Source of the DNA: a virus
DNA: 21,146 bases
Reading direction: 5' to 3' (one strand)
IMG/VR virus record: IMGVR_UViG_3300027736_000286
Location: 1 to 21,146 of that record
The stretch's first letter is position 1; the number at the start of each line of letters is the position of its first letter. The notes beneath the pieces were generated by a model, which ran no database searches, was not told the DNA's origin, and was given only the letters and a program-made list of their open reading frames with translations. Both the position numbers and the translations under genes were made by a program. Positions 1-21,146 of this stretch are shown here, piece by piece.

Positions 1-3000
1 GCTTTGGTTCAGACCATGCGGGAGACCCCCGCAAAGCAGCCCGAGTACAGTCTCGATGAGACTAAGAAAGCTGGGTCTGTCGGCCCCGGCCCCGCTGAGA
101 ATTTAGCGGCGGCAATGGCTAAATTGAAGAGCAAAGAAGGTATCACCGAGGATGAGTTCCAACTCCTTGTTAGCAACAAGATACTCAAGCCCGAGTCGAG
201 ATCTTCGGTAAAATTTGCCGTACCCAGAGTTGATACAGCTCTAGAAGAACAAACCAACGCGGCTACTCTTCAAGACGCTGCCAAAACCGACCAAGTAACT
301 CAAGCTGCTCAAGTTCAAGCCGCTCTTCAACAACGGCAGCAACAAAACGAAGCAGTTCGTCAGGGCGCTCTGGCCCAAGCGCAAGAGGCTACGAAGCAGC
401 GGCAAGAAAGGGAAGTTGCTGATTTTCAAGCTAAACAACGAGCAGCTTCCGAAGCCGCAATCGCTGAACGGCAAGCCGAAGCTGAAGACCGAACCGCAGC
501 CCTACAGGAGCAAGCAAATGTCGAACCAAGTGCAGCACCTGCTGAAAATGTCCCGCCAGCAGTTGGAACAAGCGATGCAGTACCTAGCAGACCCGGAGCA
601 GGAGTACCCGCCGGAGAACCTTCAACATCTCCACCCCCTAGAGTGGTCTCTGCTGAGCAACCTTCTCAACAAACTGGAGTGGGAAAAGGACCACAGCCCA
701 CTACAGTAGAAGTAGGTACACCCGCCGAAGAGTGGAACACTCAGTTCCGCACTAGCGATGCTGAACCCACGTTTGAGCAACTGCCTCCACATCTGCGTAG
801 GAAGTGGATGGACGCCCCTGCTAAAACGGTGGAGTTGTTTGATTCAATCGTCAATGATTTTGGCGCTGCTGCACCGCTGGCTCCAGAAAGGCCCGGACTT
901 CTCAATCAACCTTATACGTATTACTCGCCCAAAGAGATCGGCATACCCGGTGATCGCCTTGCGTTACGCAAGTTGAAGAACGACAGTCCATTTGCCAATT
1001 CGTATTTTGACCGCTCCCGTCTGGCAGACAATCTGATTAACCTTGCGCATGATCGGGTGTTCGAAAACTACACTGCGGCTAGGTCACAAGAAAACCTTGA
1101 TAAGTTAGATGATTGGGTTCGCAGTAACCTGACCGATGACGCGGTGCGTGGGTATGACGAACAAATAGATAACCAACGCGCGCTATTAGGTAAAGCTCAG
1201 CTTAAAGAGTTAGAGGATAAAGCGTTAGAAAAAACAGCAACGGCAGAGGCGGAAGCAGAAGTAGAAGCTCAGCCACCCCAGCCCCCTGCACCTGTTGTAA
1301 AAGCTAAAGCGCCACCCGCGCCGCCACAGCCAAAACCTAAAAAACCAAAACGCCAACAGACCTTAGAACAGTTGGCGAATAAACGCGCTAAAGAAGCTGA
1401 GGGGCAGGAGACCGCCCTCGAAGAAGATATTCAACGGGCACAGAAAAACCAAACCGAAACGCAACGGATTGCCGCGCAAGCTCGGGCACGTGCTGTTGAA
1501 GCAAACGCAGAAAACGAACGGCTGATGCAAAGGCGGCAAGAAGAACTTGCCCGAGCTGCGGGGAAACCAACAGAAGCTAAACCAGCCGAAGTCAAACCAG
1601 CCGAAGCCAAGACGAGTAAACTCCCCGAAGGAAAAATAGTTTTTGGTGAAGATCCGGGCGATGGTAGTTCATATATAGCGCAAGCCGTTCAAAATTACGG
1701 CGATATGGTTATTGACGCCCAAAGGGATAACATACGAATTGACTTTGCGCCGCCTTTGAAAATTACTAATTATACTGTTAATTATGTTAGTTTATTGCCA
1801 AACAGAGTAAGTATAAGCTTAAATAGTAATAGAACTGGAGATTCATTTAGAATAATTTTAGGAGTGGTTCCTAAAAATACAGGTTTAAATTATTTAGATA
1901 TTAGAAATATAAATAAAGATACACAATCTTCTTTAACTCGCAACAAACCAAATTCTGATTTAGAACAAAAATTTAGAGCTGCTATTGGTAACGCAGCGGT
2001 TGATACTTTTTTAAAGGGTGGCGAATTACCTACATTTATAACTAACGTCATTGGGGTTGATTTAACCCCGCGTATAGAAGAAATGTACGCTGCGTTTGAT
2101 AAACATTACCTTGTACAATCAAAGCCCCAAGTCGCGGAGCCCACGACTTACACCAAACTTCTTTCTCCCAGCATCTCTCGGGAAGACTTTGCCCGCGCTC
2201 TTGGTGTGCAGCAACATAGCTCCGGCTGGCTCACCACTAAGTACAATCAAGCGCTGGCTGATGCTGTTACCAAAGGCGATGCTAATGCAGTTATTGAAGC
2301 CCTATCGGGCAGCGCAAATCCTATTATTCGTGATATTGCTAACCGCGCTAGAGCGTTGCAGCGTTTCGCTACCGAGCGTGTAAATTTTGTTGTAGACGAT
2401 GCGGTCTTACGGCAAGAGGAGATGGACGAGAACTACCCACCTAACAGCGTTGGTGGACTGTTCAACCCCGCAAATCGTACGATCTACATTAGCTCTACCC
2501 ATGCTGGCAGCGAAGTAACTGCGGCCCACGAGCTTATTCACGCGCTGGTTGATAGGATACTGCGTAATCCAATTACCGCAAAGCAGCGCGAAGCTGCTGC
2601 TCGCTTGCGCGCCTTGCACAAAGAGCTTGTAAATAAAGCCTTTGCTGTCTACAAAACTAACAATATCAAGGACTTGCCATACGGGTTGCAAAATGTCCAT
2701 GAGTTTTTAGCAGAAGGGTTGGCGAACCCCGAGTTCCAATATCTGCTTGCGGCTATACCTCATGAGTCTGGTACAGCTTCAATCTGGACGAAGTTTGTCC
2801 AAGCAATCGCTGACCTGCTAGGGTTTACCAAACCCAATGCCTTGACTGAGGTGCTGGATATCTATGGCGCTCTTGTAGCGGAAGGACCGTCCACGGCACC
2901 GATTGATCAAAGTACGCGCAAGCTCGCCTCGATGGGCATCCCGGTTGATGACCCTGCCACTCCTCTTGCTGATGACTTGCCCAAGAACGCGCAAGTCCCT

Positions 3001-5934
3001 CCTACGGTATCAACGCCGGTAGCCTCTACTCCGCAACGGGCAACCGCCCGCGCTATGCAAGATCCCATGCAGGAGTATCTGAAAGCCGCTAAAGATAGTG
3101 AGCTTTATATCAACGCAATAGATCAAGTTGGGCGGTCAGCTCTGTCTGTGCAGCCTATGTGGTATATCGCTGATACCGCGCGGAAGCTGGGCTTCCGGCA
3201 GATTGGCGAGATTGAAAACTCCCTGCGTAAAGCAGGGGCGATGAAGAACACCTTGCTCAAGCGTAGTTCGGACTTCATGATCAAAGCATTAGCGATTGCT
3301 AAATCTGACCCTGCCGGTAAGAAGGCGATGGACGCCTTCGTGAACCGCGCGTCTGGTCTTACGATTGATGTGACCCGTAGCAAAGACCCGTCAGCAGAGT
3401 TTGTTAAGACCCGCCCTGATTCGGTTGCTGACTACATTTCTCTACGTGCCGAATACGACAAGCTCCCTGCCAAGTTCCAGACCTTAGCGTCCGATCTTGT
3501 TAGTCAGTACCGGCAATTCCGTGATGAGTATTTTGAGGCTCTGAAAAAGTCTGTGCAGGATCAGTATCAAGATGACCCCGTTAAAGCGGACAAGATCTTG
3601 TCTGGTCTAGATGAGAAGTACAAAAAGTTTAATGAAGCCTACACGCCGTTTGTCCGCATAGGGGATTACTGGATTACGTACGTCAACCCTGATACTGGGG
3701 AGAATGTTGCCGAGTCCTACACCAGTCTGGGTGCTCAGAAGACGCGGCTCAACGACCTTAAAAGAGAAGGCATCGTCCACGTCCAGTCATTCAAACAAAC
3801 GGACTTTAGGAAGTTCAGCTACAAGAGTGGCCCGGTCAATCAGTTCTTTGATGAGATTAAAGCTAACGTGGACAAGGCGCTGCCCATCCACAAGGATGAC
3901 TCCACTGCCACGGCTGACCGCATCCGTGAAGCTCGTGAAGAAATGAAAGAACGCTTGTATCAAGCGTCTTTGTTGCTGCACCCGGAGTCATCCATGCTTC
4001 GGCAGTTTGGCCTTGAGCGTAAAGGCACGCTGGGTTATATCGAGGATACGCTTGCCGCGTTCGACCACAAGGCTCCGGTCTACGCTACTCAGATCTCCCA
4101 AGTTGCTAACAAGGGTCAGATTGAGCATCAGATTGACAGCGCACGGAAACAGAACGCCAGCAACCCTGAGACGAAGATGAGTGACATCATCACGCACGTT
4201 GCCAAGGTTGTCTATGGGGTGGACACAATCCGCTCGGATGATCCTCTGAACCAGATTGCCAACAACGTGAACCGGCTGGGCTTTACGTTCTACATGGGCT
4301 TCAACCCTGCATCGGCTCTCGTAAATATGTTGCAGACGCCTACCGTGATGTTCCCACTGCTGGCTGGTGAGTTCCACGGGCTGGGTCAAAGCAAGATCAT
4401 GAGCACCCTGTTCAGTGCCATGACCAAGGTCATTAGCGGCTCAGTGGGCCAGCAGACGTACGGCGAGAAGTTGGTTGAGTCTGCGGAAGCTAAGATCGAC
4501 GCCGCTGTTGCCAAGGGTAAGACTCGTGAAGAAGCTATTGCGGCCCTACCCGAGATGGAGCGCGTGTTCCTCTCGTTCCGTGATCAAGGCGTCCTCAACG
4601 CCGGTGACCCTAGCCATGACTTTGGTTCGGTAGCGAAATACGGGTCAGGTGAGACTTCCGCATTTGGTAAGGGCGTGCAAGCCTTTACTAAATACTCCGC
4701 AATCATGTTCCAACGGGCTGAAGCAGTTAACCGTGAAGCCGGGGCGCTCGCAACCTACCAACTGATGAAGCAGCGGTTGAGTGGTAAAGCGGATATGAGT
4801 AACCAAGACAAGTACGACCAAGCGATTCGCAAGGCTACTGATATGGTGACAAGAGCGCATGGAGACTACCAACAAGGTCTGGCTCCTAAAATCTTTTTGA
4901 GCCCGACGATGCGCGTCATCTTAATGTTCAAGAAGTTCCCCGCTCACATGGCTGCACTCTATGTGCGTCTCTTCAAAGATATGTTTAGTGACGTGGACCC
5001 TGAGGTTCGTAAGGTAGCTCGCATCCAGTTTGCTGGTTTGATGGGGATGTCCAGTCTTTTTGCCGGGACCATGGGGATGCCGTTCTACTTCATCGTTCGG
5101 GATTTGATGAATTTGATACTCGATGATAAGGACGACCCATACGACTTTGACTTTGCCTTCTACAACTACCTGTCCGACATGTGGGGCCAGCCTATGGCTA
5201 ACCGCATTACTCGTGGTTGGTTGGGCGATCTCGGTGGGGATGTTGCTAGTAAAGTGGGGTACGCGAGTTCTCCCCTTTTGGGAGGCACTAAGCAACTGCC
5301 ATTCATCGGCGGTATCTTGGGGCTGCGCGACGGCAAGAACACTGCGTCCGCTGAAGATGATCTGAAGAACTATGTTGCTGAAGCTGCGGGCGCGTCTGCC
5401 GGTATGGCCCTACAGATTGCACGTGGTGTAGACAAGCTGGCCCAAGGCGACGTGTATCGTTTCTTGGAAGGCGTCACTCCTATGGCCGGTATGCGTAACA
5501 TTGCCAAGTCCATCCGACTAACCAATGAGGGTGCGTTGACCACTCGCGGCGAGCCGATCATCGAGGACGTGTCTACCATCGAGACCGCTTTGCAAGCGGT
5601 AGGCTTTACTCCGCAGCGGTTGGCCGGTCAGTATCAACTCAACGCTTGGCAAAAAGATACTGAGAAGCAGGTTCTTGATCGCAGGCAGAGCCTCATCAAT
5701 CAGAAGTTCAACGCTCGTGCGCGTGGGGACTACGATACGGAGGCTGATGTCAAAGCTGAGATCGACAGGTTCAACATCATGAATCCTGAGAAGGGCTTAA
5801 AGATTACTTCTGAAACCCTTGCTGCTTCGGCCCGCACCCGTGCCAAGCAAGAAAAAGAAACCAAAGCTGGTATCTACCTCTCCAAGCCGTTCCGTCAACG
5901 CTTTGCCGAAGTGCCGGTATACGCGGAACAATAA
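1..5934 (+). CDS. Giant polyvalent virion-type protein with zincin metallopeptidase domain (5' partial)
   Basis: The reading frame is open at the left edge, so the true start may lie outside; residues here are numbered from the TTG at position 4. Residues 1-540 are Ala/Gln/Glu/Lys-rich with coiled-coil character, a Pro/Lys-rich linker near 420-450 and short EAKPAEVKPAEAK-type repeats near 520-535. Residues about 545-690 lie in an AT-rich stretch and look like a separate domain. A zinc-protease motif HELIH is at 842-846, with a downstream HEFLAEG (899-905) that could supply the third ligand, as in gluzincins. The long C-terminal part contains helical, phage-typical sequence, including FKKFPAHMAALYVRLF near 1642 and a hydrophobic stretch at about 1680-1706. 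Very long multidomain proteins like this are known in phages as polyvalent or internal virion proteins, ejected with the DNA or packaged in the capsid. That assignment is inference from architecture. It is the only rightward gene and converges on the replication operon. Confidence 0.75.
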   Translation, partial: ALVQTMRETPAKQPEYSLDETKKAGSVGPGPAENLAAAMAKLKSKEGITEDEFQLLVSNKILKPESRSSVKFAVPRVDTALEEQTNAATLQDAAKTDQVTQAAQVQAALQQRQQQNEAVRQGALAQAQEATKQRQEREVADFQAKQRAASEAAIAERQAEAEDRTAALQEQANVEPSAAPAENVPPAVGTSDAVPSRPGAGVPAGEPSTSPPPRVVSAEQPSQQTGVGKGPQPTTVEVGTPAEEWNTQFRTSDAEPTFEQLPPHLRRKWMDAPAKTVELFDSIVNDFGAAAPLAPERPGLLNQPYTYYSPKEIGIPGDRLALRKLKNDSPFANSYFDRSRLADNLINLAHDRVFENYTAARSQENLDKLDDWVRSNLTDDAVRGYDEQIDNQRALLGKAQLKELEDKALEKTATAEAEAEVEAQPPQPPAPVVKAKAPPAPPQPKPKKPKRQQTLEQLANKRAKEAEGQETALEEDIQRAQKNQTETQRIAAQARARAVEANAENERLMQRRQEELARAAGKPTEAKPAEVKPAEAKTSKLPEGKIVFGEDPGDGSSYIAQAVQNYGDMVIDAQRDNIRIDFAPPLKITNYTVNYVSLLPNRVSISLNSNRTGDSFRIILGVVPKNTGLNYLDIRNINKDTQSSLTRNKPNSDLEQKFRAAIGNAAVDTFLKGGELPTFITNVIGVDLTPRIEEMYAAFDKHYLVQSKPQVAEPTTYTKLLSPSISREDFARALGVQQHSSGWLTTKYNQALADAVTKGDANAVIEALSGSANPIIRDIANRARALQRFATERVNFVVDDAVLRQEEMDENYPPNSVGGLFNPANRTIYISSTHAGSEVTAAHELIHALVDRILRNPITAKQREAAARLRALHKELVNKAFAVYKTNNIKDLPYGLQNVHEFLAEGLANPEFQYLLAAIPHESGTASIWTKFVQAIADLLGFTKPNALTEVLDIYGALVAEGPSTAPIDQSTRKLASMGIPVDDPATPLADDLPKNAQVPPTVSTPVASTPQRATARAMQDPMQEYLKAAKDSELYINAIDQVGRSALSVQPMWYIADTARKLGFRQIGEIENSLRKAGAMKNTLLKRSSDFMIKALAIAKSDPAGKKAMDAFVNRASGLTIDVTRSKDPSAEFVKTRPDSVADYISLRAEYDKLPAKFQTLASDLVSQYRQFRDEYFEALKKSVQDQYQDDPVKADKILSGLDEKYKKFNEAYTPFVRIGDYWITYVNPDTGENVAESYTSLGAQKTRLNDLKREGIVHVQSFKQTDFRKFSYKSGPVNQFFDEIKANVDKALPIHKDDSTATADRIREAREEMKERLYQASLLLHPESSMLRQFGLERKGTLGYIEDTLAAFDHKAPVYATQISQVANKGQIEHQIDSARKQNASNPETKMSDIITHVAKVVYGVDTIRSDDPLNQIANNVNRLGFTFYMGFNPASALVNMLQTPTVMFPLLAGEFHGLGQSKIMSTLFSAMTKVISGSVGQQTYGEKLVESAEAKIDAAVAKGKTREEAIAALPEMERVFLSFRDQGVLNAGDPSHDFGSVAKYGSGETSAFGKGVQAFTKYSAIMFQRAEAVNREAGALATYQLMKQRLSGKADMSNQDKYDQAIRKATDMVTRAHGDYQQGLAPKIFLSPTMRVILMFKKFPAHMAALYVRLFKDMFSDVDPEVRKVARIQFAGLMGMSSLFAGTMGMPFYFIVRDLMNLILDDKDDPYDFDFAFYNYLSDMWGQPMANRITRGWLGDLGGDVASKVGYASSPLLGGTKQLPFIGGILGLRDGKNTASAEDDLKNYVAEAAGASAGMALQIARGVDKLAQGDVYRFLEGVTPMAGMRNIAKSIRLTNEGALTTRGEPIIEDVSTIETALQAVGFTPQRLAGQYQLNAWQKDTEKQVLDRRQSLINQKFNARARGDYDTEADVKAEIDRFNIMNPEKGLKITSETLAASARTRAKQEKETKAGIYLSKPFRQRFAEVPVYAEQ

Positions 5935-8843: not shown

Positions 8844-9086
8844 TCACCACTCGATAGTAGAGAAATCGGAGATTAGTTCTTTAACCCTCGGTAAGTGTCG
8901 GTTTTTATTGGGAAGCGTCCGTCCTGTAAACCACATATAGATAGTCATACGGGAAACTTTTAAGTGACGGGCAACTTTGGTGGCAGGGATGTCGCGGTCG
9001 ATACAGAGCAAGCCAAGTTTGACGCCTTCTTTTTCAGGGTCAGCTTTCTTGACTTGATCTACAAATTTAATACTGTAGCCAAGCAT
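8844..9086 (-). CDS. Small helix-turn-helix DNA-binding protein
   Basis: An 80-aa protein starting MLGYSIKF. The start is chosen because AAAGGA (9092-9097) lies 5 nt upstream of this ATG; the longer open frame running to 9200 overlaps the neighbouring gene and has no better site. Residues about 33-57, IPATKVARHLKVSRMTIYMW, read as a helix-turn-helix: a short helix, a turn around Leu-Lys-Val and a recognition helix. It could be a transcription regulator of the operon or a small replication-associated DNA-binding protein. It sits directly before the primase-helicase gene, separated from it by 1 nt. The family is not identified. Confidence 0.72.
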   Translation of the reverse strand: MLGYSIKFVDQVKKADPEKEGVKLGLLCIDRDIPATKVARHLKVSRMTIYMWFTGRTLPNKNRHLPRVKELISDFSTIEW

Positions 9087-9103
9087 GGCGGTCCTTTGGA
9101 AAA

Positions 9104-9130
9104 GGGGTGTAAAGCGATCCTCTACACCCC
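9104..9130 (-). terminator. Weak intercistronic terminator/attenuator hairpin
   Basis: A perfect 8-bp stem, GGGGTGTA (9104-9111) with TACACCCC (9123-9130), has an 11-nt loop. Read leftward it is followed by TTTTCC, a short T tract. It lies between the 96-aa gene and the HTH gene, and the HTH ribosome binding site follows a few bases later. The T tract is too short for a confident full terminator; partial attenuation or an RNA-processing/stability hairpin is plausible. Confidence 0.5.
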
Positions 9131-9138
9131 CAGAGGTC

Positions 9139-9429
9139 TTAGTGAGCGAAGCTGTTCGCTGCCTTGCGGGCTTCTGCTTTGGCTTTCGCTGCAAGTGCAA
9201 GTTTAAGTCCCTGCTCTCTCATTTTAGCCCGACGTTCGGGAGTAACGAGCATCGCGCGACGGACCGTTTTCTCCACAGGCTTTGGCGCGACTGCCCCGTT
9301 CTTGGCTTCGTAGATCCCGGCCCAATAGGAGAGCTGCTGTTCAATGGTACGCATCTCGATTGCGGCAATGCCGGAGATTTTTTTAGCAAGTTGCTCTTCA
9401 ATGTTAAGTTTTACTTTAGGCTGTTTCAT
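9139..9429 (-). CDS. Small basic protein, possibly ribbon-helix-helix
   Basis: A 96-aa protein not recognised by family. Its N-terminal half, KVKLNIEEQLAKKISG followed by a helix containing TIEQQLSYWAGIY (residues about 5-42), resembles a beta strand plus two helices as in ribbon-helix-helix regulators, with a ParD-like SYWA ending. The C-terminal half is Ala/Lys/Arg-rich (TPERRAKM... to the end), helical and probably nucleic-acid binding or disordered. The Shine-Dalgarno sequence is weak (GAG, 7 nt before the ATG). It is flanked on both sides by intercistronic hairpins, which suggests its expression is set separately from its neighbours. Confidence 0.65.
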   Translation of the reverse strand: MKQPKVKLNIEEQLAKKISGIAAIEMRTIEQQLSYWAGIYEAKNGAVAPKPVEKTVRRAMLVTPERRAKMREQGLKLALAAKAKAEARKAANSFAH

Positions 9430-12646: not shown

Positions 12647-13327
12647 TTAGCTTCTTCCGTTGTGTGGGCAGATTGCCACTGGACAATATTTTTGGCAGGT
12701 GAAGTTAGGTTTCGGGTTCCACACGTCAGTAGCATAGGCTTCCTTCAGTGGGACGTAGCTATCCCAAGTCTCCTGCATAAGCCGAGGCACGGAAGATTCT
12801 CTATGGTACTTGCGTTTGACCAACTCGTTGGCTACAACGAAGATGAGCGCGGCCTTGATGACCTTGACATCGGGGAAGTGGGCGAACGTAGCTAGTGCAA
12901 GCAAGTCTAGCTGTACGGTATCTGCGTAGCGAGAAGTCTTTCCCGTTTTGTAGTCAATTACTTTGGAGCGTTCTCCGTTGACTACTACCAAGTCCGCGAT
13001 ACCCCGCCACCATACATCAGGCGCGGTGAACGTGCAGGGCGTACCATCTTCACGCAGCCCCATCTTGTACTCGGCGTACTTATCCCCCTCGTACGCATCT
13101 ATCTTGTTCATGTACCCCTCCATATATTTATACTGGGGAGGGATCGGTTTTTTCTCAGTGATGTAGTCTTCAGCGGCTTTGTGGACGGCGCTGCCGTACA
13201 GCAGCGCTTCTGTTTCTTTATCCTTAAAATCTTTAAGAACCCTAAGATGGTGGTACTTTTTGGGGCACTGCTTAAACAGCGACATCCCGCTGTACGACCA
13301 AACTATAGGCTTCTCAAGAGTCTGCAT
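12647..13327 (-). CDS. PD-(D/E)XK exonuclease, Cas4/RecB-like, with probable Fe-S cluster
   Basis: A 226-aa protein. After an N-terminal SYSGMSLFKQCPKKY (11-25) come GSAVHKAAE (45-53, His49), RGIADLV with D112, IDYKTGK with D125 and K127, and Q139 in DTVQLDLLALA: the ordered motifs of the RecB/Cas4 nuclease fold. Cysteines C21, C211, C215 and C220 are arranged as one N-terminal plus three C-terminal residues, the pattern of the 4Fe-4S cluster in Cas4 and AddB-type nucleases. The protein probably resects DNA ends for phage recombination or degrades host DNA. The start codon overlaps the polymerase 3' end by 14 nt, and the protein begins at the usual position for the family. No other CRISPR-related gene is present, so an adaptation role is not suggested. 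Confidence 0.88.
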   Translation of the reverse strand: MQTLEKPIVWSYSGMSLFKQCPKKYHHLRVLKDFKDKETEALLYGSAVHKAAEDYITEKKPIPPQYKYMEGYMNKIDAYEGDKYAEYKMGLREDGTPCTFTAPDVWWRGIADLVVVNGERSKVIDYKTGKTSRYADTVQLDLLALATFAHFPDVKVIKAALIFVVANELVKRKYHRESSVPRLMQETWDSYVPLKEAYATDVWNPKPNFTCQKYCPVAICPHNGRS

Positions 13328-15149
13328 AAGTAGGGCCGCATCCTATTTCACAATCTACGGGTAAACCATTAGCCCACGTCGGTGTCCATCGCATACATTC
13401 CTGAACGTATGCCATAGCCTCGTTAGACTCTTGCTCTGGAACAATTATAGACACTGCATCATGTACTGTCAAGACCGGACGATATCTCTTTGCGATCCTT
13501 AACATTTGCTCCCCCACAATGATCCGGGCAAGAGCCTGCACCACATTCTCCACCAGCTTACCACCGTAGAGCTTCACGTTCTTCTCACGCAACGTGCTGT
13601 ACATGACACCCTCCACCGGTGTCGCCCTTAAATTGTTGTATTCAATCTTCATGGTGTTGGGCAGCACGATGCAATTGTGTCCTATCTCCAGCAGGTCATT
13701 CTTTCCTAGTCTCCAGCCTTGGGAAGTGAGCATGTAGTGTATAGCTCTGTCTGCCAGCTTCCACAGACGCACGATGTTGGGGTTGAAGGCCCGGTACACT
13801 TGAATAATCCGGTCGGCCTCGTTCTCGGAAATCTGAGTCTCTTTCTTGAGAGACAACATGCCATGAAACTTTTCTGCCCCCATGCCGTAGCCGCACCCGA
13901 GGATCACGGTCTTGCCAAAGAATCTTTCCTCCTTGGATATCCTAGCAACGGGCTTGTTGTAAATCTTTGATGCCATGATCTTGTAGACATCCTTGCCATC
14001 AGCGAAGGCAGTCACTAAGTCTTCCTGCCCAGCCAGCCACGCGAGGGTGCGCGCCTCGATCTGCGAGGAGTCACAGGAGATGATGACGTGCCCAGCCGGT
14101 GCGCGTAGCGATTTCTTTAGGGCGGAGGCCGCCCCCCTACTAGGTAGGTTCTGCATATTAAGTTTGTCAGACCCGCCCCATCTGCCGGTGTGCGCTGCGT
14201 AGTATCTAAGAGGGACAGGCAGTGGGCCGCGTTTGCCTATGCCAATGAACCGCTCGGTGCGGGATTCTTCGATGGTTGTCTTGACCCCAAGCCGCGCGGC
14301 CACCACTGCTTGCACCCGTAGGTCAGGGTGCTCAAGCAACGCTTGGAACGCCTCGTCCGTCTTGGCAAAGGCGTAGACTTGCTTACCAGTAGTGGGAGAG
14401 GCTTTGATGGGGGGCACAACATCGAGCCTGCGCAGTATCTCGGCAAACTTCGGGTTGCTCATCACGTCCTCAAGATTGATGTCGGCGTCCTTAAGTAGCT
14501 TAGCCTTGTTCTCTTTCACCTTAATCAGATGTTCCTCAAGCAGGTGCACATCCACTTCAAGGGTAGGCTGGGTGAACATGCGGATCGTGAGGTCGATCAG
14601 CTTTAATTCTTTTAGAGGGAACTCATCGAACGTAAAGTCATCGTGGGCACGGAAGTTATACATACGTGTGTACAACGCAGCGGTTAGCTCCACGTCGTTT
14701 CGGCAGTACTCCATGTACCGCTCCATCTGCTCAGGTGTAAAACTTTTACGCGTCTTACCCAGTGCGTTGATGACTTCAGTTCCCTTCGCACCCAACTGAA
14801 AATACTCGGCAAGGGGAGCCAGCCCTACCTTGTGTCTCGTGCCAAGAAGCGCTTGCGCCATCGACATAGTATCGAGCCAAGCCTTTGGGTAGATGTCGAA
14901 ATGCCACGCCAGAATAGCTGCGTCAAATACTGCGTTGTGAGCACAGGCTGCTGACGATGCCCAATCGAACTGCTCCAGCCACCTTTTCGTATCGGCGCGT
15001 GAACCAGAGAAGCTCTCCGTCTTCTCATCGTCCACTTTAACCGCCACCCCGATGACTTCAAATCTTGGATCACGGACGTACTCCTCAGTAGATATTTTGG
15101 AGAGACTGAAGTCTCGGTCGTAATAAGTTTCAAAGTCTATGGTTATCAC
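13314..15149 (-). CDS. Family A DNA polymerase with 3'-5' exonuclease domain
   Basis: A 611-aa replicative polymerase. The DnaQ-like proofreading domain has Exo I D5-F-E7, Exo II AHNAVFD (D76) and Exo III Y148-x3-D152. The palm has motif A CDSSQIEAR (D360, E365), motif B RFFGKTVILGCGYG (R409, K413, Y421) and motif C TVHDAV (H563, D564). There is no 5' nuclease domain, as is usual in phage enzymes. The residue matching E. coli Pol I Phe762 is Leu417, a variant described in virioplankton polymerases. The second motif C carboxylate (Glu883 in Pol I) is replaced by Ala565. The start is GTG, with GAGGGA 7 nt upstream (15157-15162), and the frame begins directly at the exonuclease strand ITIDFET. 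It heads the replication part of the operon. Confidence 0.95.
   Translation of the reverse strand: MITIDFETYYDRDFSLSKISTEEYVRDPRFEVIGVAVKVDDEKTESFSGSRADTKRWLEQFDWASSAACAHNAVFDAAILAWHFDIYPKAWLDTMSMAQALLGTRHKVGLAPLAEYFQLGAKGTEVINALGKTRKSFTPEQMERYMEYCRNDVELTAALYTRMYNFRAHDDFTFDEFPLKELKLIDLTIRMFTQPTLEVDVHLLEEHLIKVKENKAKLLKDADINLEDVMSNPKFAEILRRLDVVPPIKASPTTGKQVYAFAKTDEAFQALLEHPDLRVQAVVAARLGVKTTIEESRTERFIGIGKRGPLPVPLRYYAAHTGRWGGSDKLNMQNLPSRGAASALKKSLRAPAGHVIISCDSSQIEARTLAWLAGQEDLVTAFADGKDVYKIMASKIYNKPVARISKEERFFGKTVILGCGYGMGAEKFHGMLSLKKETQISENEADRIIQVYRAFNPNIVRLWKLADRAIHYMLTSQGWRLGKNDLLEIGHNCIVLPNTMKIEYNNLRATPVEGVMYSTLREKNVKLYGGKLVENVVQALARIIVGEQMLRIAKRYRPVLTVHDAVSIIVPEQESNEAMAYVQECMRWTPTWANGLPVDCEIGCGPTYADS
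14737..14749. repeat. Palindromic 13-mer GTAAAA-S-TTTTAC, copy 1
   Basis: GTAAAACTTTTAC is a perfect copy of the motif repeated through the right third of the window. It lies inside the DNA polymerase gene, where it encodes part of RKSFT, a different reading frame from the copies that encode VKLLR. This rules out a shared peptide motif as the cause. Confidence 0.85.
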
Positions 15150-17016: not shown

Positions 17017-17249
17017 TGGATAGCTTCGGAACTGGCGACGTTTGATTTCTCGCGCCGCATCCGCGCGATCTCTTCGTTAACCCAGTCGGCCATAAGAATA
17101 GCCGAATGAATATCCACAACTTTGTCGAGCATTTCTCTGGCAGTCATCGCCGCCTCATGCGTATTGTTTGCGTTTAGATGCGATTTGATCTCAACCATTA
17201 ACTGTTGAACCTCAACAAAAGGTTCGCTCCAATCTTTATACAATTTCAT
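17013..17249 (-). CDS. Small helical protein, function unknown
   Basis: A 78-aa, nearly all-helical protein (FVEVQQLMVEIKSHLN, EAAMTAREMLDKVVDIHSAIL, DWVNEEIARMRREK) without cysteines or membrane segments. Its start has GGAG (17254-17257 on this strand) and follows a perfect dispersed palindrome by 15 nt. The 12 nt directly before its ATG are identical to those near the VWA gene start. It overlaps the VRR-NUC gene by 14 nt at its start and the winged-helix gene by 4 nt at its end. Confidence 0.65.
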   Translation of the reverse strand: MKLYKDWSEPFVEVQQLMVEIKSHLNANNTHEAAMTAREMLDKVVDIHSAILMADWVNEEIARMRREKSNVASSEAIQ

Positions 17250-17520
17250 TCTCCAGTTGTTCGCGTAAAAGTTTTACGCTGTTCACACAAAAAGAAAGGC
17301 CACCCGCAGAACGGATGGCCTTCAGATTCTTCACTTGCAATGCGGTAGGCTGGTTGTCTCCAGCCTTGCACTCAATACCTACAAACTTTCCATTGAGACA
17401 CGCAACTATATCAGGCACTCCCGAGCGACCGTAGCCGCCCGTGACTGGCATGAAATAGTATGCGCCTAACTCATTTAGATAGGCTATTACCTCCTTCTTT
17501 ACTTTCCCTTCCGGTGTCAA
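17236..17520 (-). CDS. VRR-NUC domain nuclease
   Basis: A 94-aa stand-alone VRR-NUC (PD-(D/E)XK superfamily) nuclease. It begins with TPEGKVKKEV, followed by YYFMPVTGGYGRSGVPD with D37, GIECKAG with catalytic E50 and K52, and QPTALQ (Q57, Q62), then the closing AGG...V strand. This is the length of stand-alone phage VRR-NUC enzymes, which are thought to process branched or Holliday-type DNA. The start is TTG at 17520, supported by AGGAGAG at 17525-17531. The N-terminal region overlaps the end of the 327-aa gene by 50 nt. A terminator-like hairpin lies inside the codons near its 3' end. Confidence 0.9.
   Translation of the reverse strand: MTPEGKVKKEVIAYLNELGAYYFMPVTGGYGRSGVPDIVACLNGKFVGIECKAGDNQPTALQVKNLKAIRSAGGLSFCVNSVKLLREQLENEIV
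17265..17277. repeat. Palindromic 13-mer GTAAAA-S-TTTTAC, copy 3
   Basis: GTAAAAGTTTTAC, extended here to a 17-bp perfect palindrome GCG-TAAAAGTTTTA-CGC (17263-17279). It lies at the 3' end of the VRR-NUC gene and ends 15 nt before the ATG of the following helical-protein gene. It follows the terminator-like hairpin by about 12 bases in the direction of transcription. Confidence 0.88.
17289..17322 (-). terminator. Intragenic terminator-like hairpin in VRR-NUC gene
   Basis: An 11-bp stem with one G-T wobble (arms 17296-17306 and 17312-17322) has a 5-nt loop. Read leftward it is followed by TCTTTTTG. By form it is as good an intrinsic terminator as the one at the operon end, yet it lies within VRR-NUC codons (KAIRSAGGLSF). 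It precedes a dispersed palindrome and the next gene start, so it could trim the transcript between early-operon sections. Coding constraint may also explain it. Confidence 0.5.
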
Positions 17521-18454
17521 GTAACTCTCCTAAATCTTCACCGATAAACCCACAACGGGTAAGCCAACCGCACTCGGATGTTCCCTTGAACCCCACCATT
17601 GATGCTCTGTCCAAAGAACCCAACTGCATCAGCGCGAGCTTACTTTGTACCACGTCTGGAAGAGCCTCGACACTAGGGAAATCCCTAATGATGTAGTCAA
17701 AGTCTTTCCCTTCCATCGAGACACCCGTCGCCTTCTTTGTCATCGTGATCATCCGATACATATGCCGCCCGCCCGGCGGCAGAGCTTGAAGAACTACGAA
17801 AACATCTTTCAAACACGCTTGCTCAAACTGTTTGTCTATGAACAGATCGTGCGCTGCAAGATAGTCCTTCACTACCCCTTGATCCTCTACCGTAGCTTGG
17901 CTCCGCATGAGTCGCGCTAGGAATGAGTAGTCATCGCCGTGGTACAACTTGCGAAGCAAAGTGCCCATTGACTTCATCTCTTCATCCATAGGTACGGACA
18001 TCTTGACCGCATCATTGAGGGACCACCAGCAGTTCTCAAAAATCTTATCGGCGTACTCTGGCAGCTTCTGATAGTTCAAGAGTTCCACCAGCTTCTCAGC
18101 TTTTGACCGAGTGCTGGAACGCTTGATGTTTGTCGGAGCCTTTCGATTCTTGATCCTGTCGCTCGACACCTCTGCTTGGATCGCACCGCGCACGTCGCCT
18201 TGCGGTTTGAACACCCCGAGAGTGCCGATGTGGAAACCTGCTTGAAACACTTCGATGTCGTCATTTCGCCGCAATTTGAAGTAGATCGTGGGGTCTGAGT
18301 ACGTCACACGCATGGCGTCGAGAAGCCACTTCAGGGGCTCTTTTTTGAGCTGATCTCTGGGGGAAATAGCTTCGAAGATTTTCTCTCCCCCATGCTCTCG
18401 CAGCGCGTTGAGGGTGAAGAACATATTGTTCTTGTGCTCATGAATAATAGACAT
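17471..18454 (-). CDS. Unrecognised 327-aa protein of the AAA/VWA cassette
   Basis: A 327-aa soluble protein with no family recognised. Visible features are an N-terminal helical region (FFTLNALREHGGEKIFEAI), a small beta-like part around DIEVFQAGFHIGTLGVF (66-82), a basic stretch (RIKNRKAPTNIKRSSTRSK), and a helical second half with GGRHMYRMITMTKK. No catalytic motif stands out. The ATG has CAGGAGAG just upstream. It lies 14 nt after the DUF3150-like gene and may belong to the AAA+/VWA/DUF3150 cassette, perhaps as its substrate or adaptor; this is inferred from position only. Confidence 0.7.
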   Translation of the reverse strand: MSIIHEHKNNMFFTLNALREHGGEKIFEAISPRDQLKKEPLKWLLDAMRVTYSDPTIYFKLRRNDDIEVFQAGFHIGTLGVFKPQGDVRGAIQAEVSSDRIKNRKAPTNIKRSSTRSKAEKLVELLNYQKLPEYADKIFENCWWSLNDAVKMSVPMDEEMKSMGTLLRKLYHGDDYSFLARLMRSQATVEDQGVVKDYLAAHDLFIDKQFEQACLKDVFVVLQALPPGGRHMYRMITMTKKATGVSMEGKDFDYIIRDFPSVEALPDVVQSKLALMQLGSLDRASMVGFKGTSECGWLTRCGFIGEDLGELLDTGRESKEGGNSLSK

Positions 18455-18468
18455 GATCTCTCCTGAAA

Positions 18469-19353
18469 TTAAAATGCGAACTTGTTGAGAATGTCCTCTA
18501 CCTGCGTACGCACGTCGTGCCGTACAGCTTTACTGTCCCGTAAATCTTTTACAGAAATACCGGCAAGAGCAGCGGCGAGGGAGGCGCGGGCGTTCTCCAA
18601 CTGCGTGTCGTTGGTGATGTTCATACTGTCGAGCGTGTCGATAAGCTCGTTAGCTTTCTCGATCATGGATGTCTGGAAGATCTTGCGATCACCCTCCTCC
18701 CCATCAGTCAGACGGTCAACCAGATGGGTAAGAACTTTGTGCAAGCGTGACCATGCGTCGCCCATAGCCGCACTCACCTGCTTGTCGTATAGCTGGCGGT
18801 AGTGCTCGTTGAGTTCGTCACGGATCTGCATCTCGCAGTCAACACGGAAGTCGCCTGTCTCTGGCACAGGCCAGAAGCTAACCTCCATGTAAAACTTTTT
18901 CTCAATCTGAGAAACCTCTGGGTACTCGTTGCGGTCAAACATACTGCCGAGTTGGAACGCGGCAGCGGACACCATAGTCGGGTAGCAAACAAGTAGCTCC
19001 TTCTTTAGCTCGTTGTACTTGGCGACCCACGTGTCTGCCTCTGCCTTGTAGTCGAAGAACCGCTTCATTGAAAGCAAGCGTGGACCCGAGTCTGCCCACG
19101 GCAGGGTGAGGTGATAGTGCCGGTTGCGCGTGTTCGCTACGAACTTGTTGAGCAGGTCAAGCTGGTGTGCACCAGCCAGTAAGTTCTTATGGTAGTTACC
19201 CGCTCGTCCCTGCGTATTGTTCTGCTTGTCTACGTCCTCGCTCACTTTGCGGTCGAGCTTGCGAGCGGTCCAGTTGCCCACGCTGAGGTTGACCAGCATG
19301 GCGCTGGATGCGATGGATGGACCGAAGGTTGGGGTCGTAATGATCTGGGTCAT
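18469..19353 (-). CDS. DUF3150-like protein
   Basis: A 294-aa protein resembling DUF3150. The N-terminal part has LSVGNWTARKLDRKVSEDV, then GRAGNYHKNLL, then ARN-like RNRHYHLTLPWADSGPRLL (77-95), and then a long helical region to the C-terminus. In several phages and some bacteria, as I recall, DUF3150 genes lie beside CobS/MoxR-like ATPases and CobT/VWA proteins, exactly as here. The function is unknown; a partner or target of the ATPase-VWA pair is the natural hypothesis. The ATG overlaps the stop of the small ORF by 4 nt, and a perfect palindrome copy ends 15 nt upstream of it. There is no signal peptide or membrane segment. Confidence 0.65.
   Translation of the reverse strand: MTQIITTPTFGPSIASSAMLVNLSVGNWTARKLDRKVSEDVDKQNNTQGRAGNYHKNLLAGAHQLDLLNKFVANTRNRHYHLTLPWADSGPRLLSMKRFFDYKAEADTWVAKYNELKKELLVCYPTMVSAAAFQLGSMFDRNEYPEVSQIEKKFYMEVSFWPVPETGDFRVDCEMQIRDELNEHYRQLYDKQVSAAMGDAWSRLHKVLTHLVDRLTDGEEGDRKIFQTSMIEKANELIDTLDSMNITNDTQLENARASLAAALAGISVKDLRDSKAVRHDVRTQVEDILNKFAF
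18540..18552. repeat. Near-match of the palindromic 13-mer (12 of 13)
   Basis: GTAAATCTTTTAC differs by one base from the dispersed motif. It lies inside the DUF3150-like gene, encoding VKDL. Confidence 0.5.
18889..18901. repeat. Near-match of the palindromic 13-mer (12 of 13)
   Basis: GTAAAACTTTTTC differs from the motif by one base in the last arm. It is within the DUF3150-like gene (codons of KKFYM). Confidence 0.45.
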
Positions 19354-19496
19354 GATTGGCTCTCGTCTGTAAAAGTTTTACGTAAAAGTGTTCTAAGCAA
19401 TGCTGATGTTGGCTCGCAGTTGTGCCCCGTGACACGGAGCAGAGCCACCTCGTCGATGTACTCTAGCTCCATGCCTGACAGGGCGAGCAACGCCAT
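19350..19496 (-). CDS. Small unrecognised protein between VWA and DUF3150 genes
   Basis: A 48-aa protein, MALLALSGMELEYIDEVALL and onward. The open frame extends to 19664, but that would overlap the VWA gene by 136 nt. The ATG at 19496 is preceded by AGAGAAG and leaves a 32-nt gap after the VWA stop. Its own stop overlaps the DUF3150-like ATG (ATGA), which suggests translational coupling. It may be an adaptor or simply a coupling leader; nothing in the sequence tells which. Confidence 0.5.
   Translation of the reverse strand: MALLALSGMELEYIDEVALLRVTGHNCEPTSALLRTLLRKTFTDESQS
19369..19381. repeat. Palindromic 13-mer GTAAAA-S-TTTTAC, copy 4
   Basis: GTAAAAGTTTTAC, perfect copy followed on the plus strand by a further half-site GTAAAAGTG (19382-19390). 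It lies at the end of the small ORF and ends 15 nt before the DUF3150-like start codon, the same spacing as copy 3 to its downstream gene. Confidence 0.88.
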
Positions 19497-19528
19497 AAGT
19501 TCTTCTCTTGTGTGTTCGTCATACCTCT

Positions 19529-20734
19529 CTACATGTTGATTGACTGACCGTACGGGGGCTTCCACCCCTTGTTCTCCGTCACTACCCAAAGCGTCGGCGC
19601 GAGACCTGTCCATAACTCCTCCTTGCAGTGTCCGATATGCCCGTCGGTCAGGATGACCACGCACACGGGATCGAGCCGCTCCTTCTTAACATACAGAGGG
19701 ATGCAGTCGGGGTTAGTGCCGCCGCCACCCTTGGGTTTGGTTACATCTAATAGAGACTCGTACATACCTTGTACGTACACTTCATGCCCTGCCACGCGAG
19801 TGTCCCAGTATAAGAGGTCAACGCACTCTGGCGTAACATCTTTACAGATGGCGATAAGCTCAGAATAAAAGTCAGCAAGCTCGCGCGTACCGATAGATCC
19901 TGAGGTGTCGATAGCCACAACGACGCGACCGAGCGCGACACTCTCCATGCTAGGCATGATGATGTCCTCGTGTAAGAACCTACGGTTAGGCTTGCGCCAC
20001 GTAGACCGATCACGCCCTGCCGCAACTGCTTTGCACCACTGACGAAACACCTCGCGCCAGTCAACCTTAGGATCGACAAGCTCATCGAAGGCTTTGTCTT
20101 GGTTAGCACCGAGCTTGCCAGCCAGCATACCGCCCTGACGCAGCGCGTCTTCGATCTGCCGTGTCGCTACTTTCTTTTCCTCCTCGCTCAACGCTTCCGC
20201 GCCCTCGAAGTCGTGCTCATCGAAACCACCGAGTCCATCGTCTGGCTCGCCACCCTTACACGGCTTGTCACCTTGCTTGCCCCCACGTTCCTTTTTCTTC
20301 TTGCGAAGGATGTCGTAGACCTGCTGAGTATCCATGCCCCGGTAGTCCTCGTCGATCAGACCCTCTACAGGCATCTGAATCATGGACTGGTTCGGGTCAT
20401 AGTCAACTAGCTGCTGGTTGATAACAAAGTCACACGCCGCACCGGCACACCGAGCGTCCTCCTTGAACAGGTGCTTCCACGTGGTCAAGTGTCGATACGC
20501 CTTGTGCATGTTCTCGTGCATGACAAGGAAGTTGAGTTCCCTCTCATTAAGAGTTTGCACAAACTCTCTCCCATAGAAAACGTCACGCCCGTTGGTACAG
20601 GCAGTGGGCAACCCGTCCACCACCGTGACCTTGCCGACCATGAACAACCCAGACCAGCGCACGAAGCGCTTGTCTTTCATGAGTTGCACATGCGCGCGCT
20701 CAAGACGCTGCTCTACTGTCAAATCGTTATTCAT
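19529..20734 (-). CDS. Putative metallopeptidase-VWA-like protein (DUF2201 type)
   Basis: A 401-aa protein beginning MNNDLTVEQRLERA. The N-terminal domain has HENMH (73-77, an HExxH zinc motif) and a later CDFVIN with D102 as likely third ligand, as in the putative metallopeptidase domain of DUF2201 proteins. A charged Lys/Gly/Asp linker follows (about 142-200). The C-terminal VWA-like domain has the MIDAS DTSGS (D276, S278, S280), GGGGTN (T340) and a late LTDGH. Such proteins pair with MoxR-like AAA+ ATPases, and the C-terminus of one is encoded just upstream. An in-frame GTG at 20791 overlaps the upstream stop, but the ATG at 20734 has GGAG 6 nt upstream and starts where family members usually do. 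It may recruit or cleave a target for remodelling; the target is unknown. Confidence 0.85.
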   Translation of the reverse strand: MNNDLTVEQRLERAHVQLMKDKRFVRWSGLFMVGKVTVVDGLPTACTNGRDVFYGREFVQTLNERELNFLVMHENMHKAYRHLTTWKHLFKEDARCAGAACDFVINQQLVDYDPNQSMIQMPVEGLIDEDYRGMDTQQVYDILRKKKKERGGKQGDKPCKGGEPDDGLGGFDEHDFEGAEALSEEEKKVATRQIEDALRQGGMLAGKLGANQDKAFDELVDPKVDWREVFRQWCKAVAAGRDRSTWRKPNRRFLHEDIIMPSMESVALGRVVVAIDTSGSIGTRELADFYSELIAICKDVTPECVDLLYWDTRVAGHEVYVQGMYESLLDVTKPKGGGGTNPDCIPLYVKKERLDPVCVVILTDGHIGHCKEELWTGLAPTLWVVTENKGWKPPYGQSINM

Positions 20735-20787
20735 CACTCTCTCCAGTTGTTGGGGACTTTCGTCCCCGTTGTGTAAAACTTTTACGA
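20735..20787 (-). promoter_or_regulatory. Structured leader upstream of the VWA gene
   Basis: This 53-nt gap carries, in leftward order, a perfect dispersed palindrome (20773-20785), a hairpin GGGGAC-GAAA-GTCCCC (20752-20767, 6-bp stem closed by a GNRA tetraloop), and AACAACTGGAGA (20740-20751), which contains the ribosome binding site. The same 12-mer lies immediately before the ATG at 17249, also downstream of a palindrome. It looks like a translational or transcriptional control leader. Confidence 0.55.
20773..20785. repeat. Palindromic 13-mer GTAAAA-S-TTTTAC, copy 5
   Basis: GTAAAACTTTTAC, perfect copy in the gap between the AAA+ ATPase and VWA genes, 38 nt before the VWA start. It is non-coding if the ATG start is right. 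Confidence 0.88.
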
Positions 20788-21146
20788 TCACAGGATGTAT
20801 TTGTTGACTCGCGCCCAGTCAACGAACGGACGGCACGTCGCAGCCATGCCCTGCTTGGGGCTGTTCCAGATACCCGTACAGAACAGAGCCTGATGCTCTT
20901 TGCTGAACCGTTGCAGGTACTTCATCCACGCATCCATATCCTTGCGCTCGACCCACGTGACGGCAGAGAACACCAACATGCACAGAGCCATCGGGTCAGT
21001 GGGGACAGGACAAGTTTCAGGGTTGGTAAGATAGTGCTCACGTACGGGCAACTGATCTGCGACGTGCAAGAACGTCATCAACCGCTGCGCGAACGTCGCA
21101 CCCACCGTACCAATAAGCGCTGCTTCCATCGGCCCATCACCGATCA
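20788..21146 (-). CDS. MoxR-like AAA+ ATPase, C-terminal part (5' partial)
   Basis: The frame is open to the right edge, so only the last 118 or so residues are present. They match the C-terminal lid region of MoxR/CobS-type AAA+ ATPases: IGDGPMEAALIGTVGATFAQRLMTFL, then a LP-x-R-E-x-YLTNPETCPVP-like segment and a helical end. Walker motifs would lie outside the window. An ATG at 21129 is an internal methionine rather than a start. The identification rests on this short region plus the adjacent VWA gene, the classic MoxR partner. The gene is the first of the cassette inside the window and ends 53 nt before the VWA ATG. Confidence 0.65.
   Translation of the reverse strand, partial: IGDGPMEAALIGTVGATFAQRLMTFLHVADQLPVREHYLTNPETCPVPTDPMALCMLVFSAVTWVERKDMDAWMKYLQRFSKEHQALFCTGIWNSPKQGMAATCRPFVDWARVNKYIL

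Follow-up and report, generated by a model that had tools for sequence, protein, structure and literature searches.

We identified, in a fragment of a freshwater phage genome, a cassette of genes encoding a MoxR-type AAA+ ATPase, a protein with an HExxH metallopeptidase domain fused to a VWA domain, a DUF3150-family protein, and a 327-amino-acid (aa) protein. The fragment is the whole IMG/VR record IMGVR_UViG_3300027736_000286 (21,146 bases, hereafter the window). Related phages keep these genes together in their early/replication arm, and the ATPase, VWA, and DUF3150 components form a triad with counterparts on plasmids and integrative and conjugative elements (ICEs). Phages were already known to carry ATPase-VWA pairs; what appears to be new is DUF3150 as a constant third partner of the pair in one large phage group, as well as the link of the triad to plasmid anti-defense loci. 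On present evidence the cassette would most likely be used for counter-defense, protecting phage DNA, a reading that we put forward tentatively.

The identification of the cassette in an initial annotation of this DNA was right, and its gene list was correct apart from the start of the VWA gene and the extent of a small open reading frame (ORF). The ATPase gene is cut by the right end of the record, leaving only the C-terminal 118 aa (20788-21144), which matched phrog_1297 (“ATPase,” E 6e-15). Full-length orthologues in the close relatives L002, L003, and L004 contain both Walker A (GEPGIGKSS) and Walker B (LLMLDELSK) motifs along with an FATGN motif, bearing out the assignment of the truncated gene to the AAA+ ATPases. 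The orthologue that we scanned, that of L002, matched AAA_5 with 26.4 bits against a cut-off of 22, and the best solved relative of the ATPase was the AAA region of midasin (E 8e-28).

The VWA protein matched PF13203 in its N-terminal part (E 4e-26, 92.5 bits) and PF09967 in its C-terminal part (E 5e-18, 66 bits), both far above the cut-off, confirming its earlier description as a DUF2201-type protein with intact HExxH and MIDAS residues. The HExxH motif, an AxDxxN-type motif beyond it, and every MIDAS position (DTSGS/T/D) were invariant in 13 cassette phages. HExxH and MIDAS were also kept in the VWA proteins of one phage each of Acinetobacter, Alteromonas, and Vibrio, of Bacillus phage G, and of MinM2, and HExxH was retained in eight highly diverged phage VWA proteins. 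That HExxH persists at around 30% overall identity speaks for a functional metal site, and the protein is predicted to have peptidase activity. Its start is most likely the ATG at 20734, which follows a good Shine-Dalgarno sequence and yields 401 aa; the GTG start listed initially (420 aa) overlaps the ATPase stop. The window VWA protein also matched phrog_1314 (E 2e-85), and 761 phage records carry a VWA homologue. PHROGs and many phage records label phrog_1314 as “HNH endonuclease,” and the PF13203 and PF09967 matches suggest that this label is wrong.

A 48-aa ORF reported next to the VWA gene proved to be real and conserved in relatives, although its 48-aa start (19350-19496) is not shared. 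A longer conserved ORF, of which it forms the 3' part, overlaps the 3' end of the VWA gene out of frame and encodes 83 to 86 aa (from ATG) or 67 to 70 aa (from GTG) in relatives, and only this frame stays open among the relatives compared.

The DUF3150-like protein of the window had no Pfam match by itself, and 18 of 26 aligned members of its family matched PF11348 (best E 1e-6), with the member in genome G005 reaching 27.1 bits against a cut-off of 24.9. Its predicted fold matched that of a phage DUF3150 protein in Foldseek (TM 0.75), and the protein is best read as a diverged DUF3150 member. Matches of the same model in the PDB were common helical bundles (Z about 8) and were uninformative. 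A search of the open-access literature for DUF3150 found no paper.

The initial annotation had regarded the cassette's partners as unknown. The 327-aa protein can now be assigned to a family with a member at the corresponding position in almost all related phages; no function or known fold was found for it. We found three close homologues by phmmer; a sequence-only search of viral contigs returned no homologue, and homologues there were recovered only through gene position combined with profiles. Proteins of about 290 aa in the same slot elsewhere were joined to it by profile comparison (hidden Markov model E 2.6e-4; hhalign E 2.9e-8), and the family has a common C-terminal motif, LPxxxQxxLAxLQL...VG. 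The structure model (pLDDT 86) had fold matches limited to uncharacterized phage proteins; a PDB fold search gave none under E 0.07, and a second comparison gave Z of at most 5.0, so that no fold was assigned. An NCBIfam scan gave no match, and PADLOC reported no defense family for the cassette, its weak QatA and mad8 matches reflecting a generic P-loop. We also observed an extra family of about 340 to 350 aa encoded between the VWA and DUF3150 genes in many related phages (L005, L009, L011, L013, L014, L018, L019, L029, L031, L032, and L034); it is missing from the lineage of the window, and the member tested (L011) had no Pfam match.

Conservation of the gene order was examined in two surveys of phage loci, one anchored on the VWA gene (34 loci) and the other on DUF3150 (80 loci kept of 540 matching viral contigs), the second anchor being chosen to remove the bias of the first. 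Both the ATPase and the VWA protein were present in 46/46 DUF3150-anchored loci with at least 5.5 kb of upstream sequence, and a member of the 327-aa family occupied the fourth position in 70/72 loci with at least 1.3 kb downstream; the surveyed phages are related by descent, and these counts are not independent. The DUF3150 proteins of these loci are mostly only about 43 to 50% identical to that of the window, with gene order still kept. Co-conservation at this level confirms that the genes stay together in related phages and indicates that the arrangement is not due to chance.

The cassette belongs to the early/replication arm and not to the virion gene set. In a 61-kb relative (G001), the cassette and the replication genes share a strand, and the terminase, portal, capsid, and tail genes occupy the opposite one; MinM2 is arranged likewise, with the cassette apart from the virion genes. 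Neighbors of the cassette in these phages include PolA, nuclease, PD-DExK, and helicase genes.

We found counterparts of the triad outside phages. A PF11348 search of 398 genomes gave 10 with matches, and most of those fetched with flanks had an AAA ATPase and an HExxH-VWA protein nearby. One genomic DUF3150 protein matched the proteins of pR997 and of three further records with 100% identity, and DUF3150 was present on 1168 plasmid records, of which 978 are conjugative. The plasmid trio consists of an AAA_5/CbbQ_C ATPase, DUF3150, and an HExxH-VWA protein in one gene run with ssb, bet/RecT, and exo. The order is ssb-bet-exo-AAA-x-DUF3150-x-VWA-radC on pR997 (SXT/R391 type), ssb-RecT-exo-AAA-x-DUF3150-VWA on pQBR55, RecT-exo-AAA-x-DUF3150-VWA-radC on pALVIN02, AAA-x-bet-exo-DUF3150-VWA on pAhD4-1, and AAA-x-ssb-bet-exo-DUF3150-VWA on the IncC plasmid pNDM-116-17 (L155:3157-11150). 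The IncC block from the ATPase gene to the VWA gene was found on 748 plasmids at 80% coverage or more. HExxH and a MIDAS-like DxSxS were present in all eight plasmid or genomic VWA proteins examined. Furthermore, the phage family profiles paired with their plasmid counterparts (ATPase, E 4e-10; DUF3150, E 3e-4; VWA, E 3e-3), and off-diagonal comparisons gave E values of 0.018 or worse. What chiefly links the phage and plasmid sets is DUF3150, together with the fact that the three parts are repeatedly found side by side. In some records, the IncC DUF3150 and HExxH-VWA genes are annotated as cobalamin biosynthesis genes.

On IncC plasmids, the triad flanks the hde locus (vcrx089-093), which evades host defense: vcrx089-090 counter type I restriction-modification, and vcrx091-093 encode Ssb, an annealing recombinase (Bet), and an exonuclease (Exo) that repair CRISPR cuts (PMC8744291, PMC12753305). 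Deletion of vcrx089-090 from pKAZ3 raised restriction by EcoKI 906-fold and by EcoBI 424-fold (PMC11602122). In pNDM-116-17, the two genes in the 089-090 position encode a MoxR-type ATPase and a 302-aa protein, with the DUF3150 and VWA genes directly after the 093 position, and by this gene order vcrx089 would be the MoxR-type ATPase and vcrx090 the 302-aa protein. The only experimental evidence we found in the neighborhood of a DUF3150/MoxR/VWA set indicates anti-restriction. Of the three functions that the initial annotation had left open, we rank counter-defense first, ahead of takeover or remodeling of a nucleic acid complex and of virion maturation, because the triad flanks this anti-restriction and anti-CRISPR locus.

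Several points weigh against this reading. MoxR ATPases act in many unrelated processes, and the ATPase match between phages and plasmids is one to be expected of MoxR proteins in general. The phage-plasmid DUF3150 link is remote and weak in single-sequence comparison, and the plasmid VWA protein is CobT-type whereas the phage protein is DUF2201-type, with no significant match between single sequences. The identity of vcrx089 as a MoxR ATPase stands on gene order, and DUF3150 and the VWA protein are putative contributors to anti-restriction. A counterpart of vcrx090, or of the 255-aa protein of SXT, was sought in the phage 327-aa family, the 349-aa family, and the family encoded 5' of the ATPase gene, and none was found. 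The deletion removed vcrx089 and vcrx090 jointly (PMC11602122), and in SXT deletions of s067, s068, and s070 reduced transfer by 10-fold at most (PMC2791158). With identity assigned by order, a joint deletion, no vcrx090 counterpart in the phage families compared, and a putative role for DUF3150 and VWA, our confidence in counter-defense stays short of even, although we place it above each of the alternatives considered below.

Under the counter-defense reading, the cassette genes would be expressed with the phage early and replication genes and their products would form one machine. A MoxR-type AAA+ ring, as expected from the family, would spend ATP to remodel a target protein complex, which the VWA half may capture through its MIDAS metal site, as in other MoxR-VWA pairs, and which the fused HExxH domain may cut. 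The largely helical DUF3150 protein could be an adaptor dedicated to the machine or the subunit that selects its substrate, with the 327-aa protein as an additional subunit specific to this phage group. Incoming or replicating phage DNA would then be protected by inactivation of host nuclease-defense complexes, with type I restriction enzymes proposed as the leading target candidate from the related plasmid machine. A more specific proposal, to which we give less credence, is that MoxR, DUF3150, and the metallopeptidase-VWA protein constitute one ATP-driven, protease-bearing anti-defense machine of phages, ICEs, and resistance plasmids that extracts or cleaves a subunit of type I restriction or other nuclease-defense complexes, with the phage 327-aa protein as an extra specificity subunit.

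The main rival, close behind counter-defense, is that the machine acts on a replication or recombination complex, either that of the phage itself or one hijacked from the host, and remodels it, for example by loading, unloading, or activating a polymerase, helicase, or recombinase, with no anti-defense role. The PolA, nuclease, PD-DExK, and helicase neighbors of the cassette, the helicase and DNA polymerase neighbors of the homologous pair in Schitoviridae, the ssb-bet-exo-RadC neighbors on plasmids, and the relationship of the ATPase to midasin, a complex-remodeling ATPase, are all consistent with this possibility. Adjacency is not interaction, however, and nearby SXT genes were largely dispensable for transfer (PMC2791158).

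It is unlikely that the cassette encodes a general host-takeover protease or chaperone acting on a non-defense host complex, such as one in transcription, respiration, or the envelope. Such a role would suit the early-arm position and has a parallel in RavA-ViaA, a MoxR-VWA pair reported to act on respiratory complexes (PMC10585395, PMC3893208), but nothing here indicates a specific host complex, and the wide sharing of the triad with conjugative plasmids favors a function in DNA invasion.

Less likely still is a role in virion assembly or maturation, in which MoxR-vWA would fold structural proteins and the metallopeptidase would process them. Iyer et al. 2021 propose this for group 2.2 jumbo phages and cite a precedent in Acidianus two-tailed virus (PMC7824862). 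We rank it third of the functions raised initially because the cassette lies in the early arm, in G001 on the strand opposite to the virion genes, and its relatives occur on plasmids and ICEs, which make no virions; the homologous N4 genes gp24/gp25 are, in addition, middle genes (PMC4193335).

A set of cobaltochelatase-like CobS/CobT auxiliary metabolic genes hijacking host CobN for cobalamin, a role suggested for tailed viruses, those of archaea among them (PMC8651126), is very improbable: CobS is likewise an AAA+ ATPase, CobT is likewise a VWA/MIDAS protein, and plasmid VWA relatives match CobT models, but the window VWA protein matched DUF2201 and neither CobT domain (PF06213, PF11775) at E≤0.1, we identified no CobN-like gene in the window, and the genes are linked instead to replication genes and to DUF3150, for which no part in B12 synthesis is known.

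Several known systems are close to the cassette. Its ATPase and VWA genes form a phage pair of the type of gp24/gp25 of Schitoviridae (N4-like phages), whose function is unknown (PMC4193335, PMC7650795): the genes matching phrog_1297 and phrog_1314 are adjacent and near replication genes. The Schitoviridae ATPase and vWFA homologues are adjacent (30% identity for the nACB1 VWA protein, E 2e-45), keep HExxH and MIDAS, and lie beside helicase and DNA polymerase genes, but we found no DUF3150 or 327-aa-family gene within several kilobases of them. Group 2.2 jumbo phages likewise have MoxR and an N-terminal metallopeptidase fused to vWA, whereas DUF3150 and the 327-aa protein are not mentioned in the sections describing them (PMC7824862), and the virion assembly proposed there is disfavored by gene context here. 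Planktothrix/Synechococcus phages Pag-Yong1, Pra-JY27, and MinM2 carry MoxR, DUF3150 (29% identical to that of the window, E 5e-19), and VWA genes in the early arm, but in the order MoxR-DUF3150-VWA with small genes between and no 327-aa-family member detected.

The IncC hde and SXT/R391 modules have in common with the cassette a MoxR-type ATPase, DUF3150, and an HExxH-VWA protein among DNA recombination genes of a mobile element. The plasmid ATPase carries CbbQ_C and the plasmid VWA protein is of the CobT type, whereas the phages add the 327-aa family, and ssb-bet-exo and vcrx090 are absent beside the phage cassette. Since the likeness is confined to the ATPase-DUF3150-VWA core, we regard the cassette as working like hde and not as a member of it. 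VMAP ternary conflict systems (Kaur et al. 2020, PMC7159879) also combine MoxR, vWA, and a third protein in an anti-invader context, but their third component is VMAP or iSTAND with effector domains, whereas here it is DUF3150 and the vWA protein bears a peptidase in place of variable effectors. Their order is VMAP-MoxR-vWA and that of the cassette MoxR-VWA-DUF3150; on the 5' side of MoxR, relatives carry small genes or genes for proteins of 220 to 370 aa, and the one scanned had no Pfam match. A gene family in this 5' position (L005:4316-5038, L011:4663-5379, and equivalents) has a C..C.NP.H-like motif that is reminiscent of His-Me/HNH nucleases.

The initial annotation had further claimed that the cassette genes share palindromic control sites. 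The sites are real and confined to the early arm, but they are not specific to the cassette (Table 1). The window contains eight matches to GTAAAASTTTTAC with at most two mismatches, against 0.35 expected. Exact sites in relatives numbered 10 in a sequence of 61 kb, where all lie at 44 to 58 kb in the early arm, 10 in one of 37 kb, and 4 in one of 55.8 kb, and a reversed control pattern had zero sites in the same relatives. Between genes, most sites end 12 to 20 nucleotides (nt) short of a start codon and closely precede the Shine-Dalgarno sequence. The site at 19369 is found at the same place in L002, L003, L004, and L042, and the only palindrome of the 327-aa gene is the one-mismatch site within the DUF3150 gene. 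The site within the polymerase gene also recurs at the same place in those four relatives; an in-frame ATG follows it at a distance of about 22 nt, and a product starting there would have 466 aa.

Other cassette phages use other palindromes: CTAACAWTGTTAG occurs 22 times in L017 (0 expected), GTTCAGNCTGAAC occurs 21 times in MinM2 (L036/L156/L157), where most early-arm sites lie 12 to 29 nt, and most of those 23 to 24 nt, before an annotated start, and further, different palindromes are present in L026, L029, and L118. The sequence thus differs by phage lineage, while the distance just 5' of many early-gene starts is nearly fixed. This pattern is similar to that of the start-associated sequences of cluster K mycobacteriophages. 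Since many early genes beyond the cassette are marked, the palindromes point to shared regulation and not to a private regulon. Sigma-70 operators over a -10 box are unlikely for most sites, which leave too little space for a downstream promoter before the Shine-Dalgarno sequence, and an RNA hairpin from the palindrome would be short with a 3-nt loop. A DNA-binding regulator, a phage promoter, and an mRNA element are candidates for how the palindrome is read. We observed a 118-aa protein (8844-9200, minus strand) with a weak match to a resolvase-type helix-turn-helix (HTH_7, E 0.0015), which makes it a candidate reader.

Table 1. Cassette genes, adjoining genes, and palindromes in the window
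Feature	Position	Strand	Evidence or location
MoxR/AAA_5-type AAA+ ATPase, C-terminal part	20788..21146	-	phrog_1297; full-length orthologues
Metallopeptidase (HExxH)-VWA (MIDAS) protein, 401 aa	19529..20734	-	PF13203, PF09967
Small ORF, 87 aa from ATG or 71 aa from GTG	19350..19613	-	Conserved frame
DUF3150-family protein, 294 aa	18469..19353	-	PF11348 matches of family; fold match
327-aa protein	17471..18454	-	Diverged homologues in same slot
Hjc/VRR-like nuclease	17236..17520	-	phrog_93 endonuclease E 6e-18; Hjc E 5e-4; directly 3' of 327-aa gene
Family A DNA polymerase	13314..15149	-	PF00476 E 4e-31; adjoining replication module
13-bp palindrome GTAAAACTTTTAC	20773..20785		38 nt (sequence given for + strand) 5' of VWA start codon
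13-bp palindrome GTAAAAGTTTTAC	19369..19381		15 nt (sequence given for + strand) 5' of DUF3150 start
One-mismatch palindrome	18540..18552		Inside DUF3150 3' end, 85 nt 5' of 327-aa gene; also in relatives
13-bp palindrome	17265..17277		15 nt 5' of start of next small gene (17249)
Palindrome	16920		Among dispersed window copies
Intact palindrome	14737-14749		About 400 nt into DNA polymerase gene

The cassette genes and their downstream neighbors are all on the minus strand. The Hjc match of the nuclease falls just under the cut-off, and the gene is syntenic in related phages. In transcription order, the nuclease gene is followed by several small genes, the family A DNA polymerase gene, and genes for a 226-aa protein and an HNH protein, beyond which lie a 520-aa helicase-like protein, assigned by reading its sequence, and a primase-helicase. 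At the other end of the window, an open-ended protein of 1977 aa (1-5934, plus strand) holds the HExxH segment AAHELIHALVDR and looks like a large virion or ejection protein with a zincin-like domain.

MoxR-VWA pairs occur in hundreds of phage genomes, where they include core genes of N4-like phages, and their role there is not known; DUF3150 as a constant partner, together with the link between the trio and hde, gives a concrete test of it. If the counter-defense reading is true, these genes would represent a protease-armed AAA+ strategy against bacterial immunity that is common to phages and drug-resistance plasmids.

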